Shown: positions 16,726-45,566 of the stretch, piece by piece
How the letters are laid out: each line of letters begins with the position of its first letter
How positions within the stretch are numbered: the stretch's first letter is position 1
Origin: Rosistilla ulvae
Lineage (GTDB): Bacteria > Planctomycetota > Planctomycetia > Pirellulales > Pirellulaceae
Reading direction: 5' to 3'
NCBI RefSeq assembly: GCF_007741475.1
Contig: NZ_CP036261.1
Coordinates: 1,302,001 to 1,366,000 of the forward strand
Length of the DNA stretch: 64,000 nucleotides
Made by a program: the position numbers and the translations under genes
The notes under the pieces: generated by a model
Told to the model about the DNA's origin: nothing
Databases searched by the model: none
Seen by the model: the letters and a program-made list of their open reading frames with translations, nothing else

Positions 16726-18189
16726 TTAGAGGGGCGAATCGCCGAGTTGGCTCGCCAGATGTTTGCCGATCCGGTCAGCCGCCGCGCGGGCGGTGCGGAT
16801 GCAGTGAGCGATCCCAACGCCATGTAGTGCGTTGCCAGCCAGTTCCAATCCTGGCAACTGGCCGGTCGCCCGCTCGACGCGATCGCGGCGATCGCAGTGG
16901 CCGACATGGTATTGCGGCATCGCGTTGTTCCAGCGGGCGACCCGCTGGATTTTCGCCGGTCCTTGCAGACCGATCATCGCTGCCAATTCGCGGCGTGCGG
17001 TTTCGATCAACTCATCGTCGCTGCGTTCCAACAGATGCGATTGCATCGCCCCGCCGATGAAGACTCGAATCAGATGCATGTCGTCGGGGGCGCGGTCGGC
17101 GAACTTGCGATTTAGAAAACTCGCGGCGATGATCTCCCGCTTCTCGATCGCTGGCACAACCATCCCGAAACCGTCCAGCGGATGGGCGACCTGGTCCTTG
17201 CCGACGCCCAACAGCACCAGCGCCGAGCTTGCATACGGAATCTCCGCAAGCTCGTCAGCCGCCTCTTCGGCAAGCGGCCTCAGCAGCGTCGAAGCAGCCG
17301 GGCCGGGCAGGGCGACGATCACTGCATCATAAGATGTGGCTTCGCCTCGATCCGATTCGATGTTCCAACTGTCGCCCTCTCGCTGCAGCGAAGCGATTCG
17401 TTGCCCGCGGCGGATGTTGGATTCGCCGATCCGATCGACCAATGTATCGAACAGCTCTCCCATCCCACCGGGCAAGCTGCGGAACTGTGCGTACCGAGCT
17501 CCGCTGGCCGACCGCGCCGCATCGTCTTTGCTCTGTTTTTGCAGGGCCCGCGTCGCGCGGACCATCCCGCCATGTTCGGTTTCCAAAGCGACAAACTGCG
17601 GCATCGTCGCCTGCATGCTCAACTTGCTGGCGTCGGCGGTATAGATGCCCGCGACCAGCGGTTGGATCAAGCGGTCGAAGGCTTCGCGGCCGAAGCGTCG
17701 GATTGCAAAGCTCTGCAGACTCTCGTCGGAGTCATCCGATTTGCCTCGAATGAACGCCTCGGCAACCAATCGCAATCGCCCGGGAATTGTCAGCAGCGGC
17801 GAAGCCAGCAGCTTCTTCAGATCGGTCGGCCTCAGCAGCGCAAAGCCCTCGGGGACCGGAACCAGCTTGCCGGCGTGCAGGATAAACGCCCGGCGGTTGG
17901 CTTCCAGCGGATCGACCAATCGATCTTCGATTCCCAAGTCGCGGCACAACTGGATCGCACCGGGAGGCTGGACTGAAAAGCTATCGGCACCAAACTCCAG
18001 CAGAAAGTCATCCTGCCGGAGCGTGCGAATGACACCACCGACGCGATCGCTCGCTTCGTACAGCACCACATCCCATTCGGGATGCCGGTGCCGCAGATCG
18101 AAAGCGGCGACGAGGCCACTGATCCCGCCGCCGATGACCGCAACGCGGGCATGGCGGGGAGGTGTCGGTTGAGGTGCTTGATCCGGCAA
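16726..18189 (-). CDS. hemG: Protoporphyrinogen oxidase (HemY/HemG, PPOX type)
   Basis: A 487-residue flavoenzyme that oxidises protoporphyrinogen IX (or coproporphyrinogen III) in haem synthesis. The FAD-binding motif VIGGGISGLVAAFDL lies at 18-32, followed by YEASDRVGGVIRT and FGADSFSV, typical of PPOX. Other family landmarks are RRFGREAFDRLIQPLVAGIYTADASKLS and the C-terminal ELAGNALHGVGIAHCIRTARAAAD, which closes the FAD site. It starts 12 bases after the gyrA stop, so it is probably cotranscribed with gyrA. Some planctomycetes and other bacteria use this protein as coproporphyrinogen oxidase (HemY, CPD pathway), which sequence alone does not settle. Confidence 0.9.
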   Translation of the reverse strand: MPDQAPQPTPPRHARVAVIGGGISGLVAAFDLRHRHPEWDVVLYEASDRVGGVIRTLRQDDFLLEFGADSFSVQPPGAIQLCRDLGIEDRLVDPLEANRRAFILHAGKLVPVPEGFALLRPTDLKKLLASPLLTIPGRLRLVAEAFIRGKSDDSDESLQSFAIRRFGREAFDRLIQPLVAGIYTADASKLSMQATMPQFVALETEHGGMVRATRALQKQSKDDAARSASGARYAQFRSLPGGMGELFDTLVDRIGESNIRRGQRIASLQREGDSWNIESDRGEATSYDAVIVALPGPAASTLLRPLAEEAADELAEIPYASSALVLLGVGKDQVAHPLDGFGMVVPAIEKREIIAASFLNRKFADRAPDDMHLIRVFIGGAMQSHLLERSDDELIETARRELAAMIGLQGPAKIQRVARWNNAMPQYHVGHCDRRDRVERATGQLPGLELAGNALHGVGIAHCIRTARAAADRIGKHLASQLGDSPL

Positions 18190-18201
18190 TCGAGGTTCGC
18201 C

Positions 18202-21006
18202 TTACTCCGCGCCGTTTTCGTCATCGGGCGACGCGGTGTCGTCGGATGTCGCTTCGCTGTCGGATGCAGCTTCCGGAGCGGCCTCGCCATCGCTAGCCGG
18301 TGCCGAGGCATCAGCTGCGGTGACGGGAGCTGCCGCGGCAGCCTCTTCCTCTTCGGAAACCTCTTCCTTCGGAACGCGAACGATCGCCGCCAGCGAATCG
18401 CCTTCGCCAAGGTTCATGATCCGCACCCCTTGGGTGTTACGGCCGATCACGTTGATCTCTTCAGCGGCCACGCGTTGGATCTTGCCCCGCGCGGTCATCA
18501 TCAAGATCTCCTCGTCGCCATCGACTCGCAAGCTGCCGATCACCTGACCGTTTCGGTCGGTCGTCTTGATGTCGCGAACGCCTTTGCCGCCGCGATTCTG
18601 GACGCGGTACTTCGCCGACGACGATGTTTCGTCTTCGGTCGGGTCGGTGTCTCCGTTGGGGCCAAACGGCGTTCGCTTTCCGTATCCGCGTTCGCAGATC
18701 GTCAGCAGCGTGGCGTTTGGATCGGCCACGACCAAGCCGACCAAATGATCGTCTTTGCCCAGGCTGATTCCCTTCACGCCCGACGTGTTGCGGCCCATCG
18801 GGCGAGCGTCCGATTCGGAGAACCGGATCGCCATTCCCTTAGACGTCGACAGCACGACTTCGTCTTCGGGTTTGATGATCACAGCTTTGACCAATTCGTC
18901 CCCTTCACGCAACTTGATCGCGATGATCCCGCCTCGCTTGGGCCGACTGTAGTTTTCCAGCGGCGTCTTCTTGACCAATCCGCCCTGAGTCGCCATCAAC
19001 ACGAAGTGCCCGGGCAGATTGAAGTCGCGAACCGGCAGGCAGGCGGCGATCTTTTCGTCTTCAGCCAGCTGCAACAAGTTGACGATCGCGCGCCCGCGGC
19101 TCTCGCGGCTGAGGTTTGGCAGATCGTAAACCTTCTGCCAGTAGACCTTTCCTTTGGTGGTCAGGAACAGCAGATAAGCGTGCGTGCTGGCGACGAACAA
19201 GTGTTCGATCGGATCCTCTTCTTCGGTCGCCGCACCCTTGAGTCCCTTGCCGCCGCGACGCTGCGCCCGGTAGGTGCTCGAAGCGACGCGTTTGATGTAC
19301 CCGCGATGGCTGATCGTGACGACCATCGTCTCTTCGCGGATCAGGTCTTCCAAGTCGATATTGCCCAGCTCTTCGCCGCTGATCTCGGTGCGGCGGTTGT
19401 CGCCGAAGCGACGCATGATCTCTTCGAGATCCTCTTTGATCATGTCGTAGATCAGCTGTTGATCGGCCAGGATCTCGAGGTAGCCGGAGATCTCGATCAG
19501 CAATTGAGCGTGCTCTTCGCCCAGCTTTTCCTGCTCCAGGTTGACCAACTGGCCCAACCGCATTCGCAGGATTTCGTCAGCTTGAACGCTTGTCAAACTG
19601 TACGTATCGGAGACACCACGCTCCTGCTGGAACTGGTTGAATCCGGAGTCGCCCAAGGCGCGGGCCATCAGCGACGCAGGGCACTCGACGCCCATCAGTC
19701 CGATCTTCGCTTCGGGCTGCGTGCGGCTGGCGCGAATGATTTGGATGATCTGATCGATGTCGGCCAATGCCAACAACAGACCTTCGACCGAGTGCTTGCG
19801 GCGACGCGCTCGAGCCAACAGGAACTGAGTCCGGCGGCGGATTACGGTCACGCGATGGCGGACGAATTCCTGCAGGATCTCCCGCAAGTTCAATTCCCGC
19901 GGCTTGCCGTCGACCAGCGCCAACAAGATGATCGAGAAAGTGTCCTGCAGCGGCGAGAACTGATACAGCTGGTTCAGGACAACATCGGGATCGGCGTCGC
20001 GTTTGAGATCGATCACCAATCGGACCGGCTCTTTCAGATCGCTCTCGTCGCGGATCCCCGCGATCCCCTTGATGCGATCTCCGGTAACCAGGGCGGCGAT
20101 CTTTTCGACCACGCGGTCGCGAGCCTGTTGGAACGGGATCTCGTTGACGACGATCCGGTTGCGTTTCTTTTCCGTTTCGATGCGGCAGCGAGCGCGAACG
20201 ACCACGGTGCTGCGGCCGGTGTAATACCCGCGACGAATGCCTGCCCGGCCACAGATGATTCCGCCGGTCGGGAAGTCGGGGCCCTGGACGGTGTCCATCA
20301 ATTCGTCGATCGAAATGTCGGGATTTTCGACCAATTGAATGATCGCCGTGCAGATCTCTCTCAGATTGTGGGGCGGGATGCTGGTCGCCATACCGACCGC
20401 GATACCGTTGGATCCGTTGACCAGCAGGTTGGGGAACCGGCCGGGCAAAACCGTCGGTTCGGTGCGAGCCTCATCGTACGTCGGAACGTAATCGACGGTG
20501 TCCAGCTTGAGATCGTCCAGCATCATCGCGGCGACGGCGCTCAAGCGAGCTTCGGTATACCGCATCGCCGCGGCGGGCAGACCGGCGATCGAGCCGAAGT
20601 TTCCCTGTTTGTCGATCAACAGGTGCCGCATGTTCCATTCTTGCGCCATCCGAACCAAAGTCGGATAGATCACGCTTTCACCGTGCGGGTGGTAGTTACC
20701 CGACGTATCACCGGAGATCTTCGCACACTTGACCCGCCGCGATTGGGGGCCCAGGTTCAGATCGTTCATCGCGACCAAGATCCGGCGTTGGCTCGGCTTC
20801 AAACCGTCGCGAACGTCGGGCAACGCTCGGCTGACGATCACGCTCATCGCGTACGTCAGATAGCTCTCCCGCAACTCATCTTCGATCGGCAGGTCGACCA
20901 TTCGCAGGGCACCGTGCCCACCGCTGTCACCTCCGATGGGGATCGATGAACTGCCGCCGTTTTCGTTTTCGTCGCCGCTACCGTTTCCGTTCTCTTCGTC
21001 AGCCAA
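18202..21006 (-). CDS. gyrA: DNA gyrase subunit A
   Basis: A 934-residue type IIA topoisomerase A subunit, which with GyrB introduces negative supercoils. After a Gly/Asn/Glu-rich N-terminal tail come [29 protein letters not shown], the winged helix with catalytic Tyr150 ([11 protein letters not shown]), and the C-terminal six-bladed pinwheel, with GyrA-box-like QRRGGKG in the region after [13 protein letters not shown]. The presence of the GyrA box favours gyrase over topoisomerase IV ParC. In the quinolone-resistance region ([17 protein letters not shown]) the Ser equal to E. coli Ser83 is kept, but Asp82 is Glu and Asp87 is Pro. The acidic C-terminus is Ala/Glu/Ser-rich. hemG follows after 12 bases. 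Confidence 0.96.
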
Positions 21007-21317: not shown

Positions 21318-22661
21318 CTATTTGTTGCCGCTGCTAAAGATACGCCGCATCTCCTCGAGGCTCGTCGTGCCGCGAGCCACTGCCATGATCCCCTCGTCTT
21401 GCAGATTGCGATGCCCTTCGGCTTTTGCCACCTGCCGCAGCTTGTTGACGTCGCCGGTTTTCAGCAGCGCATCCTTCAGTTTTGGGCCGACGGTCAGCAG
21501 TTCATAAATCCCAAATCGGCCGTAATAGCCGCGATTGGCACACTTTGGGCAAGGGGGAAGCGGAGCGGGATTCCCCTTCTCATCGACCTGTTGTTCGATC
21601 GGCGGCGGCACAAACGGCTGGTACATCATCGCTACGCGGCCCTGCGGAATTCCCAGCTTTTGCAGCAATTGCGGCGGCGGAGTGAAGCCTTGGCGGCAGG
21701 TTTCGCACAACCGACGGGCCAGTCGCACGTTGGTGACGTGCGACAGCATATCGACGATCTCCTTGGCGGTGCCGCGATATTTGTGGACCAACCGGGCACA
21801 AGCTTCCACGGCATCGCTGGCCACGATCCGCGAGATCACCTGTTTTTCGATCTTGGTTTGCCCATGCAGCAGCTTGATCGTTTCCTCGTCGTACAGCTCT
21901 GGCATCACAAACACGTCGGGCTCACGCAGCGAAAGCGCCCGCACGGCATCGCGAGCTGTGTCGTTTTTGGCGTCGGGGCCAAAGTAGTTCGGGCTGACGT
22001 TGATGATGTCCGGTTCGTCGCTCCCCTTCGGCTCGATCGCCTGGAAATCGCTGACAAATTTATCGGCAGCTTCCAATGCGATCGTCCACGACGTCGTCAG
22101 ACCGCCCCCCTTGGGAGCACTGATCACGACCATGTGCCCTTTATCGTTGAGCGCTTCTTTCAGCTGGACCTGCATCTTGTCGCGCATCCCCAGATCGTCG
22201 AGCGTCTTGAAGGGGATTTCCTTCTTGTCCAGGGTCAGCATCACCCGCTCGCCCGTCGGAACCCCCTGGCTCTGAATCTTGACGTTGTATTTGTCGCGCC
22301 CCAGGATCGCCAGCGTTTTGCCTTGCTGAGCGTTCTTGCGATCGGCGGGATTCATCCGGCACAACGTTTTCGCGGCGACAAGCATCGCGTCCCCCGCGTC
22401 GCGCGGCAGCGGCGGCAATTGCTCCCACATGCCATCGATTTGATAACGCATGTTGACCATTTGAGCGTTGTAATCGAGCATCAGATGGGTCGCTCGATTG
22501 GCAAACGCGTGCCCCAATTGCCCCGCCAAAACGGGAAAACCTGGCGACTGGCGCGCCGAGATCAGCAAGCCTTGGGCGAGCCCCGAATCCTCGTGAATCC
22601 CTTTAAATTCGCAAGGTGCTACGGTCTGCCAAAGTTGGGGTTCTTCTTGTTGCTTGGCCAT
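21318..22661 (-). CDS. GspE/PilB-like ATPase homologue with degenerate nucleotide-binding site
   Basis: The frame extends to 22727, but the ATG at 22661 (MAKQQEEPQLW) is preferred; product 447 residues. The fold is that of type II secretion/type IV pilus assembly ATPases: an N2-like domain (NRATHLMLDYN), a core, and the zinc-binding CETC (319-322) ... CPKCANRGYYGRFGIYELL (about 359-377), which is diagnostic of GspE/PilB. The Walker A loop reads APKGGGLTT (182-190), with Leu188 where the essential Lys should be, and the Walker B region LREPDVFVMPELYDEET lacks the GE(I/M)RD signature. Frame and reading are clean, so this looks like a conserved non-hydrolysing paralogue rather than a broken gene. 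No secretion genes are adjacent. Confidence 0.85.
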   Translation of the reverse strand: MAKQQEEPQLWQTVAPCEFKGIHEDSGLAQGLLISARQSPGFPVLAGQLGHAFANRATHLMLDYNAQMVNMRYQIDGMWEQLPPLPRDAGDAMLVAAKTLCRMNPADRKNAQQGKTLAILGRDKYNVKIQSQGVPTGERVMLTLDKKEIPFKTLDDLGMRDKMQVQLKEALNDKGHMVVISAPKGGGLTTSWTIALEAADKFVSDFQAIEPKGSDEPDIINVSPNYFGPDAKNDTARDAVRALSLREPDVFVMPELYDEETIKLLHGQTKIEKQVISRIVASDAVEACARLVHKYRGTAKEIVDMLSHVTNVRLARRLCETCRQGFTPPPQLLQKLGIPQGRVAMMYQPFVPPPIEQQVDEKGNPAPLPPCPKCANRGYYGRFGIYELLTVGPKLKDALLKTGDVNKLRQVAKAEGHRNLQDEGIMAVARGTTSLEEMRRIFSSGNK

Positions 22662-42267: not shown

Positions 42268-43428
42268 TCACGCCAAGATGAGGATGATTCCGCTAAGGAA
42301 CCCAAAAAACGCAAATCCAATCCAAGCCACGATCGCGGCCATCGCGAGCACGATCGCCGGTTGTAGCAGCGACAGCAGTAACGTGACGCGACGTCCAAAC
42401 TGACGTTGATGTCGATCGGCCAGACGGTGCATCAACCAGGCACGCGTCCTGTTGGATGTCGAACCGGCCAACGCCTGGGACTCATCGCGTTGTAATAGCC
42501 CGGCCACCGACAACGAACTCCACGGGTCGGATCCCTGCTCGACTTCGTTTCGGGCGAACAACAGTTTGGCTCGTACGTTGCGGTCGTAGTGGTGGCGTGC
42601 CAGCGTCGACAACGCACCTCCCAAAGGCCGGCCCGAGGCAACCGCTGGCGACAACAATCGCAGCAGCTCCGCCGAACGCAAACGAACGACCGGACGCAGC
42701 AGTCGCGAGGCCCAGACGCGTCGATAAAATCGTTGCATCACGCCCGATGTGACCAATCGTAGAGCGGCAAATCCCAGCAACACCCATAGCAAAAAAGTGC
42801 TTTCGAAGAAGCGACCTGCGGCGACCAAAGTCCGTATCGCCGCCGGGGGCTCCCATTCAAACTCGTTGGCGATTTGCAGCAGCGTTGAGAGGATCCTGAG
42901 GAATAGGAAACTGACGATCAAAAAGTACATCAACATCGATCCCGCCAGGTAAAACATGCTGTGACGAACTGTCGGGATCGCCCCTCCGTCGTCGGCAGGC
43001 GTTGCCAATAATTGATCGAATGTCTCCCGAAGCGTTCCCGATTGATAGCCAAACCGAATTGCGAGGACCATTTGGTCGCTGAGCGCATCGGGGGTCTGTT
43101 CCAACGCGTCGACAAGCGACGCTCCCGATTCTAGGCGGCGTGTCAGACGCAGCAAGCGGCGTCGATAGCGACCGTGATGTTCATCGGCCAAGTTTTCAAC
43201 CCACTGGGGCGTCGGCTGTCCTTCGCTGTGGGCGATGGCTAAGACGCGAAGCAGCGTTCGTTGCTTTGCCGCCAACGGTTCGTTGGCAATTCGCGACGAA
43301 AGTCGCCATCGCCGTCCAGGAAGGTTTCCACCGATTTCCAGGCGACCGATCGCCCGCAGCCCTCGTGCAAGCTTGCGGCCGGCACGATTTGCGGTGGGGA
43401 AGTTCTGTTCGTTGAATGGAAGTTTCAT
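42268..43428 (-). CDS. GspF-like inner-membrane protein, third copy (C)
   Basis: A 386-residue protein of the type II secretion/type IV pilus F family, which forms the inner-membrane platform around the assembly ATPase. Two GspF repeats are visible: LLRLTRRLESGASLVDALEQTP with a membrane segment near HSMFYLAGSMLMYFLIVSFLFL, and ELLRLLSPAVASGRPLGGALSTLARHH with hydrophobic helices near LLWVLLGFAALRL and the C-terminal LLSLLQPAIVLAMAAIVAWIGFAFFGFLSGIILILA. It is third of three divergent GspF genes in a row, 82 bases after copy B. Confidence 0.85.
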   Translation of the reverse strand: MKLPFNEQNFPTANRAGRKLARGLRAIGRLEIGGNLPGRRWRLSSRIANEPLAAKQRTLLRVLAIAHSEGQPTPQWVENLADEHHGRYRRRLLRLTRRLESGASLVDALEQTPDALSDQMVLAIRFGYQSGTLRETFDQLLATPADDGGAIPTVRHSMFYLAGSMLMYFLIVSFLFLRILSTLLQIANEFEWEPPAAIRTLVAAGRFFESTFLLWVLLGFAALRLVTSGVMQRFYRRVWASRLLRPVVRLRSAELLRLLSPAVASGRPLGGALSTLARHHYDRNVRAKLLFARNEVEQGSDPWSSLSVAGLLQRDESQALAGSTSNRTRAWLMHRLADRHQRQFGRRVTLLLSLLQPAIVLAMAAIVAWIGFAFFGFLSGIILILA

Positions 43429-43510
43429 CTACAAAACGCACTTGAATGGTTGCGTGAGCTGGCGGGGAATTGAACTTGGAAACGATTGGGGAAACGGCCG
43501 AGGAACGTTG

Positions 43511-44506
43511 TCACAACGCGACGATCAGCGAACCCCAAGGCATGAATAGAGCGACAACAACAAATATGACAATCGACGCGACGGCAACCAGTGCCAGCGG
43601 ACCGATCAACCATCGCAGCCAATCGATCCGTTGCGTGGCACGCTCGTGATACATCAGCGCCAGTTCGCGCAGCAGGCGAATGTTGGGAAGGCCCGCGTCG
43701 TTGGGGTGCAGGGCCAGCAGTAAGTTGGCTGGGAAATAGATGGTTGCGTTGATCTGAGTCCAGTCGGCGCTGGAGGTTTCCGCCGCCGTCGCCAACGATT
43801 CGAGTTCGCGTTGATACAGTGGATGTCCGCAGCCACGACCGCTGATCCGAAGCGCTTCGGGTGGCGACGCGCCGATGCTGATCAGTTCGGCGACCGATCC
43901 GATCGCTTGCGCCATCGCTTGCACTTTGCGCGTGCTCCCCTTGAGGCTGAAGAGTTGCGCGCACAGCGGACTTCGTAGCCACCAGCGGTAGATCGCGACG
44001 GCCGATGCAATCGCTGCTGCGGCGATCAACAACTGTTGCAACGGGGCTTGGATCAATCGGTCGGAGATTGCCACGGCGATCCGCGTCGGCAGAGGCTGAT
44101 TCAAGCCAAAATCGCGGTACATCGCTGCGAAGGTCGGGACAACAAACCAGCTCAACGCCAGCCCTACGATTCCCGTCAGTCCCAAGATCAACATCGGGTA
44201 CAGCAAACTCGCCCTCCGTTGCCGCTGCCGCTGTTGTTGCCGCATCGTTTGAGTAAATAGCGAATGGATCCGCTGTGGCGTTTCGGCGGGATTGAAACCG
44301 CCGACGATCACCGGCAACCAAGCCGCAGCTCGCGGATGTTGCAGCCACGCCTGGACATCGGTTTCATTGCGCAGCAGATCGATCAACTCATTCAGGTCGC
44401 GTTTGCCCCAGCCAGCAGACATCTCGTCGGCCATCGCGACCAGCGGCGGAATGAGAAGCTCGCGTCGAGCAAGCGTCGCTTCGATTTGATCATGAAACGT
44501 GGACAT
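43511..44506 (-). CDS. GspF-like inner-membrane protein, second copy (B)
   Basis: A 331-residue GspF-like protein. Hydrophobic segments are at LYPMLILGLTGIVGLALSWFVVPTF, LLIAAAAIASAVAIYRWWL and the C-terminal LIGPLALVAVASIVIFVVVALFMPWGSLIVAL, the classical GspF ending. The soluble repeat MAQAIGSVAELISIGASPPEALRISGR is typical. The N-terminal repeat is reduced, so it is more divergent than copies A and C. It begins four bases after the stop of copy A. Confidence 0.82.
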   Translation of the reverse strand: MSTFHDQIEATLARRELLIPPLVAMADEMSAGWGKRDLNELIDLLRNETDVQAWLQHPRAAAWLPVIVGGFNPAETPQRIHSLFTQTMRQQQRQRQRRASLLYPMLILGLTGIVGLALSWFVVPTFAAMYRDFGLNQPLPTRIAVAISDRLIQAPLQQLLIAAAAIASAVAIYRWWLRSPLCAQLFSLKGSTRKVQAMAQAIGSVAELISIGASPPEALRISGRGCGHPLYQRELESLATAAETSSADWTQINATIYFPANLLLALHPNDAGLPNIRLLRELALMYHERATQRIDWLRWLIGPLALVAVASIVIFVVVALFMPWGSLIVAL

Positions 44507-44510
44507 TGGG

Positions 44511-45566
44511 TTAATCGGCCACCTGGGTTGCGATTTTGTAAAGCAAGTCGATGTAGGGAAGCATCAGTCCAAGCGCGTATGCGAGCACCAACAGGCCGCC
44601 GATCCCACCGCTCAACACCATCGGTAACATCACACGCCAACGCCTTGCCTGATCTACCGCCGAATCGCTGTAGATCGCGGCAACTTGCCGCAACACCTGC
44701 GCCCGCGACTGGTTTTCCAGCCGACCGACCAATCCCCATCGCAGCATCGGCGGCAATGCCGCGATCGCTGGGTCATCCATTGGAACCTGTTGGCCGATCT
44801 CCTCCGCCGTGCTCAGGTAGACGTTGGCTGTAGCCAGGTCGCCATCGAGATCGTCGTTCTGTAGACGCAGCGGACCGACGCTCGCCAACGCTTGCCCGGT
44901 CGAATCGCCAGCGTCCAGCAAGGCCGCGACATGTCGGGCGTAGGCGGCGGTTTGAATCGACGTGAAATAGTGTCGCCCCCCAAGCAACCATCCGAACCGA
45001 GAACGCATGGGCCGCAACGACCACCAGGCGATGGCAGCAATCGTGACGATCGGCACCCCAGGCACCCAAATCGGCATCGCGTCGCGCAGCATCCCAACCA
45101 ATCGCAGGCTGCCGCTGATCGGTTGCCACAGTTGTTCGTATAGAGATTCCAGTTGCGGGGCGACAAACAAACATAATGAGATTAACCCCAGATAGACCAA
45201 CGCGAGGACGATCAACGGGCCAAGCATTGCGATCCCCATCTCGCCATGCAATTCGCGGCGAGCTGCGGCGGCATCGGACAACTGGTCGAAGACTTCGGTC
45301 GGTTGTTCGCACTGAATCCAAGTGCTCAACGCCGATCGATACGGTTTGGGTAGATCGGGGTCGCTGGCAATCGCTTCGGTGAGCTCGCCCTGCCGTTCGA
45401 TTCGCAATGCCAACCGGCGTTGGATTTGCGCCAGCTGCGCCGGAAGCTTGTGGGCAGGTCCGGCAAAACCGAGTTCCAGCGGCAAGCCCAGTCGCTGCAT
45501 GGCGAGCAGTTCGGTGTGGAAGTCGGCAATCTTGGAGAGCGAATCGATGGACATCGCATCGTGCAA
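44511..45566 (-). CDS. GspF-like inner-membrane protein, first copy (A)
   Basis: A 351-residue GspF-like protein, first gene of the operon. It starts FHTELLAMQRLGLPLELGF and has membrane segments at MLGPLIVLALVYLGLISLCLFVAPQL, VPGVPIVTIAAIAWWSL and MVLSGGIGGLLVLAYALGLMLPYIDLL, with the second repeat YARHVAALLDAGDSTGQALASVG. Known T2SS and pilus systems normally have a single GspF, so three distinct paralogues in line is unusual. The promoter should lie in 45567-45795, which it shares with the divergent antiporter gene. Confidence 0.84.
   Translation of the reverse strand: MHDAMSIDSLSKIADFHTELLAMQRLGLPLELGFAGPAHKLPAQLAQIQRRLALRIERQGELTEAIASDPDLPKPYRSALSTWIQCEQPTEVFDQLSDAAAARRELHGEMGIAMLGPLIVLALVYLGLISLCLFVAPQLESLYEQLWQPISGSLRLVGMLRDAMPIWVPGVPIVTIAAIAWWSLRPMRSRFGWLLGGRHYFTSIQTAAYARHVAALLDAGDSTGQALASVGPLRLQNDDLDGDLATANVYLSTAEEIGQQVPMDDPAIAALPPMLRWGLVGRLENQSRAQVLRQVAAIYSDSAVDQARRWRVMLPMVLSGGIGGLLVLAYALGLMLPYIDLLYKIATQVAD

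Follow-up and report, generated by a model that had tools for sequence, protein, structure and literature searches.

The window, the 64,000-nucleotide stretch of Rosistilla ulvae DNA analysed here, encodes a homologue of the GspE/PilB ATPases that, judged from its sequence, is unable to act as a normal ATPase. We hold with high confidence that it is a selected pseudo-ATPase, apparently derived from an active ancestor, and with moderate confidence that this dead GspE has a role as an adaptor of PilT. On balance we favour a lineage-conserved pseudo-ATPase that would act as a non-hydrolysing adaptor or regulator of the PilT motor of its operon. The dead state is kept across the order, usually beside an intact gene for a motor of the pilus-retraction type, which suggests a former motor turned structural or regulatory part.

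A GspE/PilB fold with degenerate motifs

The reading frame is clean, with an ATG at 22661 and a stop codon ending at 21318 (Table 1). A longer mechanical open reading frame begins at a TTG 22 codons upstream, but the alignment with relatives begins at the ATG. The Pfam profile PF00437 (T2SSE superfamily) matches the protein almost end to end (E=3.8e-36, 125 bits against a gathering score of 24.9), and chains in the PDB match it as well, those of PilF and PilB at about 1e-32 and also GspE. An AlphaFold model (pLDDT 87.5), computed from an alignment of 27 window and named-locus sequences, has PilB 5zfr_A as its best structural match (Z=34.0 over 381 residues at 3.3 Å). Because PF00437, the PilF/PilB chains and the PilB structure all match, the resemblance in fold is not a chance one, and the model has the predicted GspE/PilB architecture of an N2D, an ATPase fold and a zinc CxxC domain. 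The initial annotation had described a GspE/PilB homologue in a single clean frame that keeps the overall fold and both zinc-binding cysteine pairs and carries Leu in place of the catalytic Lys of its P-loop, and each of these statements is borne out.

The protein shares its fold and its N2D and zinc domains with the assembly ATPases PilB, GspE and PilF (PF00437, TIGR02538, TIGR02533), among which Geobacter PilB (5zfr/5tsh) is the best match. It differs from them in its degenerate Walker A Lys and Gly, Asp box, Walker B and His box, and in scoring far below all of the NCBIfam equivalog cut-offs (122-143 bits against 617-850 for GspE, PilB and TfpB). Similarly, it scores 23.6 bits against the PilT/PilU family TIGR01420, the cut-off of which is 319.1. 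No MshEN/N1 domain was found in it, no regulatory N-terminal domain was found by the Pfam search, and its hydropathy reveals no transmembrane segment.

Table 1. Features of the pseudo-ATPase gene, in window coordinates
Feature	Coordinates	Strand	Remarks
GspE/PilB-family pseudo-ATPase, short form without N-terminal membrane anchor	21318..22661	-	447 aa
Degenerate Walker A, residues 182-190, APKGGGLTT (canonical GPTGSGKTT)	22092..22118	-	Lys to Leu188
Degenerate Walker B, residues 248-258, PDVFVMPELYD (compare PDxxxxGE(I/M)RD)	21888..21920	-	GE-IRD lost
First zinc CxxC, Cys319/Cys322	21696..21707	-	near-invariant in the order
Second zinc CxxC, Cys371/Cys374	21540..21551	-	invariant in the order

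The Walker A Lys binds phosphates. Where GxxxxGK(S/T) is the pattern, the window protein reads APKGGGLT, with Leu188 encoded by CTG (window 22100-22098); where Walker B is GE-(I/L/M)RD, it reads MPELYD; and Val280 stands in place of the His-box His. Also missing are the first Gly of Walker A and the greater part of the Asp box. Loss of the Walker A Lys together with the His box should abolish hydrolysis. Thr189 and Thr190 persist beside Leu188, and a Glu of the catalytic type (Glu255) and Asp258 survive in Walker B. Thus the earlier remark that Walker B lacks the usual GE-(I/M)RD holds for the motif, which reads PELYD, but not for its Glu.

Conservation and origin of the dead state

Is the loss of the Lys peculiar to this gene? 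A family member is present in all 60 of the order-level genomes searched, and the alignment of planctomycete relatives that had been advised as a check finds the Lys absent from 63 of 65 order members, replaced mostly by Leu and in some by Phe, Met, Tyr or Thr. Motif patterns were read from the alignment of close relatives, the broad alignment being too divergent for the purpose; a scan of the genome contigs with the single protein gave no match. Among 61 tallied order sequences, the Lys occurs in 2 and the first Walker A Gly in 3, and the second N2D Arg has been lost along with these residues and the His box, the commonest residues of whose column are Arg, Val, Asn, Pro, Ala and Gly, with no His among them. 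Other positions are retained: Gly187 in 60/61, a Thr or Ser following the Lys site in 56/61, a Glu or Asp at the position of the Walker B Glu in 51/61, and the zinc cysteines in 58-61 of the 61. Likewise, the Lys is found in 0/27 of a second set of sequences, mostly from named contigs of Roseimaritima (Pirellulaceae, Pirellulales), Rhodopirellula, Rubripirellula and Neorhodopirellula. The order-wide dead clade is monophyletic with a shared Lys loss (SH-aLRT 100). Within the window genus, the CTG codon is identical in all three congeneric genomes, and comparison with a congener at 96% protein identity gives a dN of 0.025, a dS of 0.79 and a dN/dS of 0.031 (0.040 in the ATPase core). The alignments and substitution rates show that strong purifying selection maintains the Lys-less state throughout the order.

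In many families outside the order, the gene at this position carries GPTGxGK(S/T), GEIRD and the His box. These active proteins are also matched by an HMM of the N-terminal membrane anchor (up to E=2.6e-39), and the evidence of homology therefore extends beyond the ATPase domain. Since the same gene is often intact outside the order, the ancestor was probably an active, membrane-anchored GspE-type ATPase, which probably lost its activity around the base of the order and, separately, in other lineages. Parsimony, applied to a tree from which the motif columns had been left out, gives at least four changes between Lys and non-Lys, one of which is a regain shared by two short copies (G018, G032). 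Support is weak (73) for the deepest split, which parts the dead clade from the active orthologues, and any order of the losses is tentative for this reason.

Five genomes contain tandem long and short copies of the gene. Nested within the dead clade are two short tandem copies (L053:8911-10230 and L060:9434-10750) that have regained the Walker A Lys (PGDGKST/PGDGKTT), with Walker B and the His box still degenerate, a regain hinting that the pocket may still matter. Elsewhere, independent loss of the Lys is seen in a phylum-level clade with GVTT, GRTT or GQTT (L125, L127, L128, L129, L130, L131 and L132); an f26 member with GRT is a separate erosion, and in some members the Lys is present and Walker B is damaged. 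Family f22, also of this class, has a further GspE-like paralogue, short and likewise dead, outside the pilT locus (L108, L110, L112, L114, L140); its neighbour is a dapA-like gene in L108 and L114, and two GspF-like genes lie near it in L110.

The pilT locus, the membrane anchor and the proposed role

The usual locus in the order consists of hisF, a gene for a PilT-type ATPase, the dead gspE, a CvpA-like gene (PF02674) and a gene for a DUF4190-type membrane protein, and pilT is directly upstream in most loci. A hisF-pilT-gspE-cvpA-like locus was seen across the phylum; we found no description in the literature of this phylum-wide combination (as pilT-cvpA-hisF) or of a dead GspE/PilB, in a coverage from which subscription journals were mostly absent. 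The PilT-type neighbour scores 377 bits, above the pilT cut-off of 319.1, and in the 43 copies checked Walker A is intact in all, the GE(M/L)RD pattern is present in 42 and the His-box pattern in all. The dead GspE evolves much faster than this neighbour: in the same genome pairs, identity is 35-58% for the dead GspE against 65-86% for PilT. In the window genus the dead gspE has moved out of this locus, a context that the window alone does not reveal: hisF-pilT remained at 3.01 Mb (genome size 7.48 Mb) with no dead gspE beside it, and the dead gspE adjoins gyrA (window 18202-21006) in all three genomes of the genus. Because the two genes are unlinked there, a partnership with PilT in the window genus rests on other genera.

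Long forms of the protein (about 590-620 aa) have an N-terminal region with a signal-like segment and further hydrophobic segments that the window protein lacks; a long-form structure model of moderate confidence (pLDDT 74, pTM 0.50) was used only to view the anchor helices. Among 60 loci, the anchor and the CvpA-like gene are both present in 37 and both missing in 20. Of the three remaining loci, L095 is cut by a contig edge, the gene lying on a different contig, one is a canonical PilB locus and one (G022) is a real exception. No short-form genome tested has a CvpA-like gene anywhere, and the anchor domain as a separate gene, sought genome-wide in the short-form set, was not found. The membrane anchor and the CvpA-like gene have been lost together. 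In a test for phylogenetic independence, the association comprises about 4 to 5 changes with only two well-supported independent pairs, too few for significance; with few independent losses behind it, the pattern suggests that the anchor and the CvpA-like protein work together.

We propose that the dead GspE/PilB-type protein no longer hydrolyses ATP and would serve as a static or regulatory ring, or as a ring partner, of the intact PilT-type motor that the locus also encodes. For most of the order we envisage a form held at the membrane together with the CvpA-like protein, and for the window genus a soluble form encoded apart from pilT. The order-wide clade, the pilT linkage, the intact PilT, the retained fold, the active orthologues outside the order and the coupling of anchor and CvpA argue for an adaptor; against it, Glu255 and Thr189/190 leave room for a weak, non-canonical nucleotide site, and the locus has no recognised GspF/PilC platform or pilin gene. 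That a dead ring can still serve has a precedent, because Walker A/B-mutant PilT supports retraction of pili by PilU, which does not retract them when PilT is absent (PMC6821130, PMC6762196). The PilT/PilU pair of type IVa pili likewise consists of two paralogous rings; in contrast to that pair, the dead partner here is of the PilB/GspE type, its dead state is natural and spans an order, and its ancestral form had a fused membrane anchor and linkage to a CvpA-like gene. The polar fibre apparatus of related planctomycetes, which its authors likened to type IV pili (PMC8303584), could be the setting in which it acts.

More tentatively, the phylum may have a membrane machine, so far undescribed, in which a PilT-type motor is combined with a membrane-anchored GspE-type ring and a CvpA-like protein and whose locus lacks a recognised platform or pilin; in the window order, the GspE ring of this machine would have become PilT's stator or clutch, fixed and non-hydrolysing. 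If so, such a ring would be a new type of part in the ATPase superfamily. Natural, long-conserved dead members of the secretion and pilus ATPases would show a ring role separable from hydrolysis. Such a role is testable because the motifs are gone from several lineages and active orthologues persist in sister orders, which allows one gene to be compared in its active and its dead version within the same operon.

Alternative readings and neighbouring genes

The dead GspE could instead function in signalling: as a PilB-like ring free of nucleotide, it would report the state of the envelope or pilus and act, independently of PilT, on processes such as exopolysaccharide production. In Myxococcus, PilB K327A, which is dead in Walker A, supports and over-supports exopolysaccharide production without ATPase activity (PMC5544727); it is thus a catalytically dead PilB with a function, although a laboratory mutant rather than a natural conserved lineage. 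The separation from pilT in the window genus would fit a signalling role as well, but pilT linkage is usual in the rest of the order and the Pfam result gives no regulatory N-terminal domain, and we regard this explanation as rather doubtful.

We think it unlikely that a rebuilt P-loop, formed by GGL(S/T)T and the Walker B Glu/Asp, still binds nucleotide and perhaps hydrolyses it slowly. The frequencies of Gly187, of the Thr/Ser after the Lys site and of the acidic Walker B residue, and the regained Lys in two members, are what such a site would lead one to expect; however, the Lys, first Gly, His box and second N2D Arg were lost together, and the Lys was also lost separately in other lineages of the phylum.

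Three consecutive GspF-like ORFs, with no GspE alongside, lie at 42268-45566 on the minus strand of the window; the ORF at 44511-45566 has only 75-78% identity between congeners, against 96-99% for the dead GspE. The initial annotation had raised the idea that the dead GspE pairs with this orphan operon; we considered such a pairing within a reduced secretion system. The genes are about 20 kb apart in the window genome, and G061, from another family of the class, has a short dead paralogue near two GspF-like genes. Nevertheless, in the two congeneric genomes the genes are separated by about 0.45 and 0.9 Mb, and a relative of one GspF-like ORF was found in only 17/40 genomes against 60/60 for the dead GspE; we reject the linkage, and the pairing is highly improbable. 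Finally, a decaying copy or a sequencing error, to which the motif loss and the move away from the operon in the window genus might have pointed, has next to no probability given the shared CTG codon, the low dN/dS and the order-wide Lys loss, and with it fall all of the objections named at the outset (intact close orthologues, a single decaying gene, an erroneous base).

A 955-codon open frame antisense to gyrA (18082-20949, plus strand) is probably a codon-bias shadow of the real gene.
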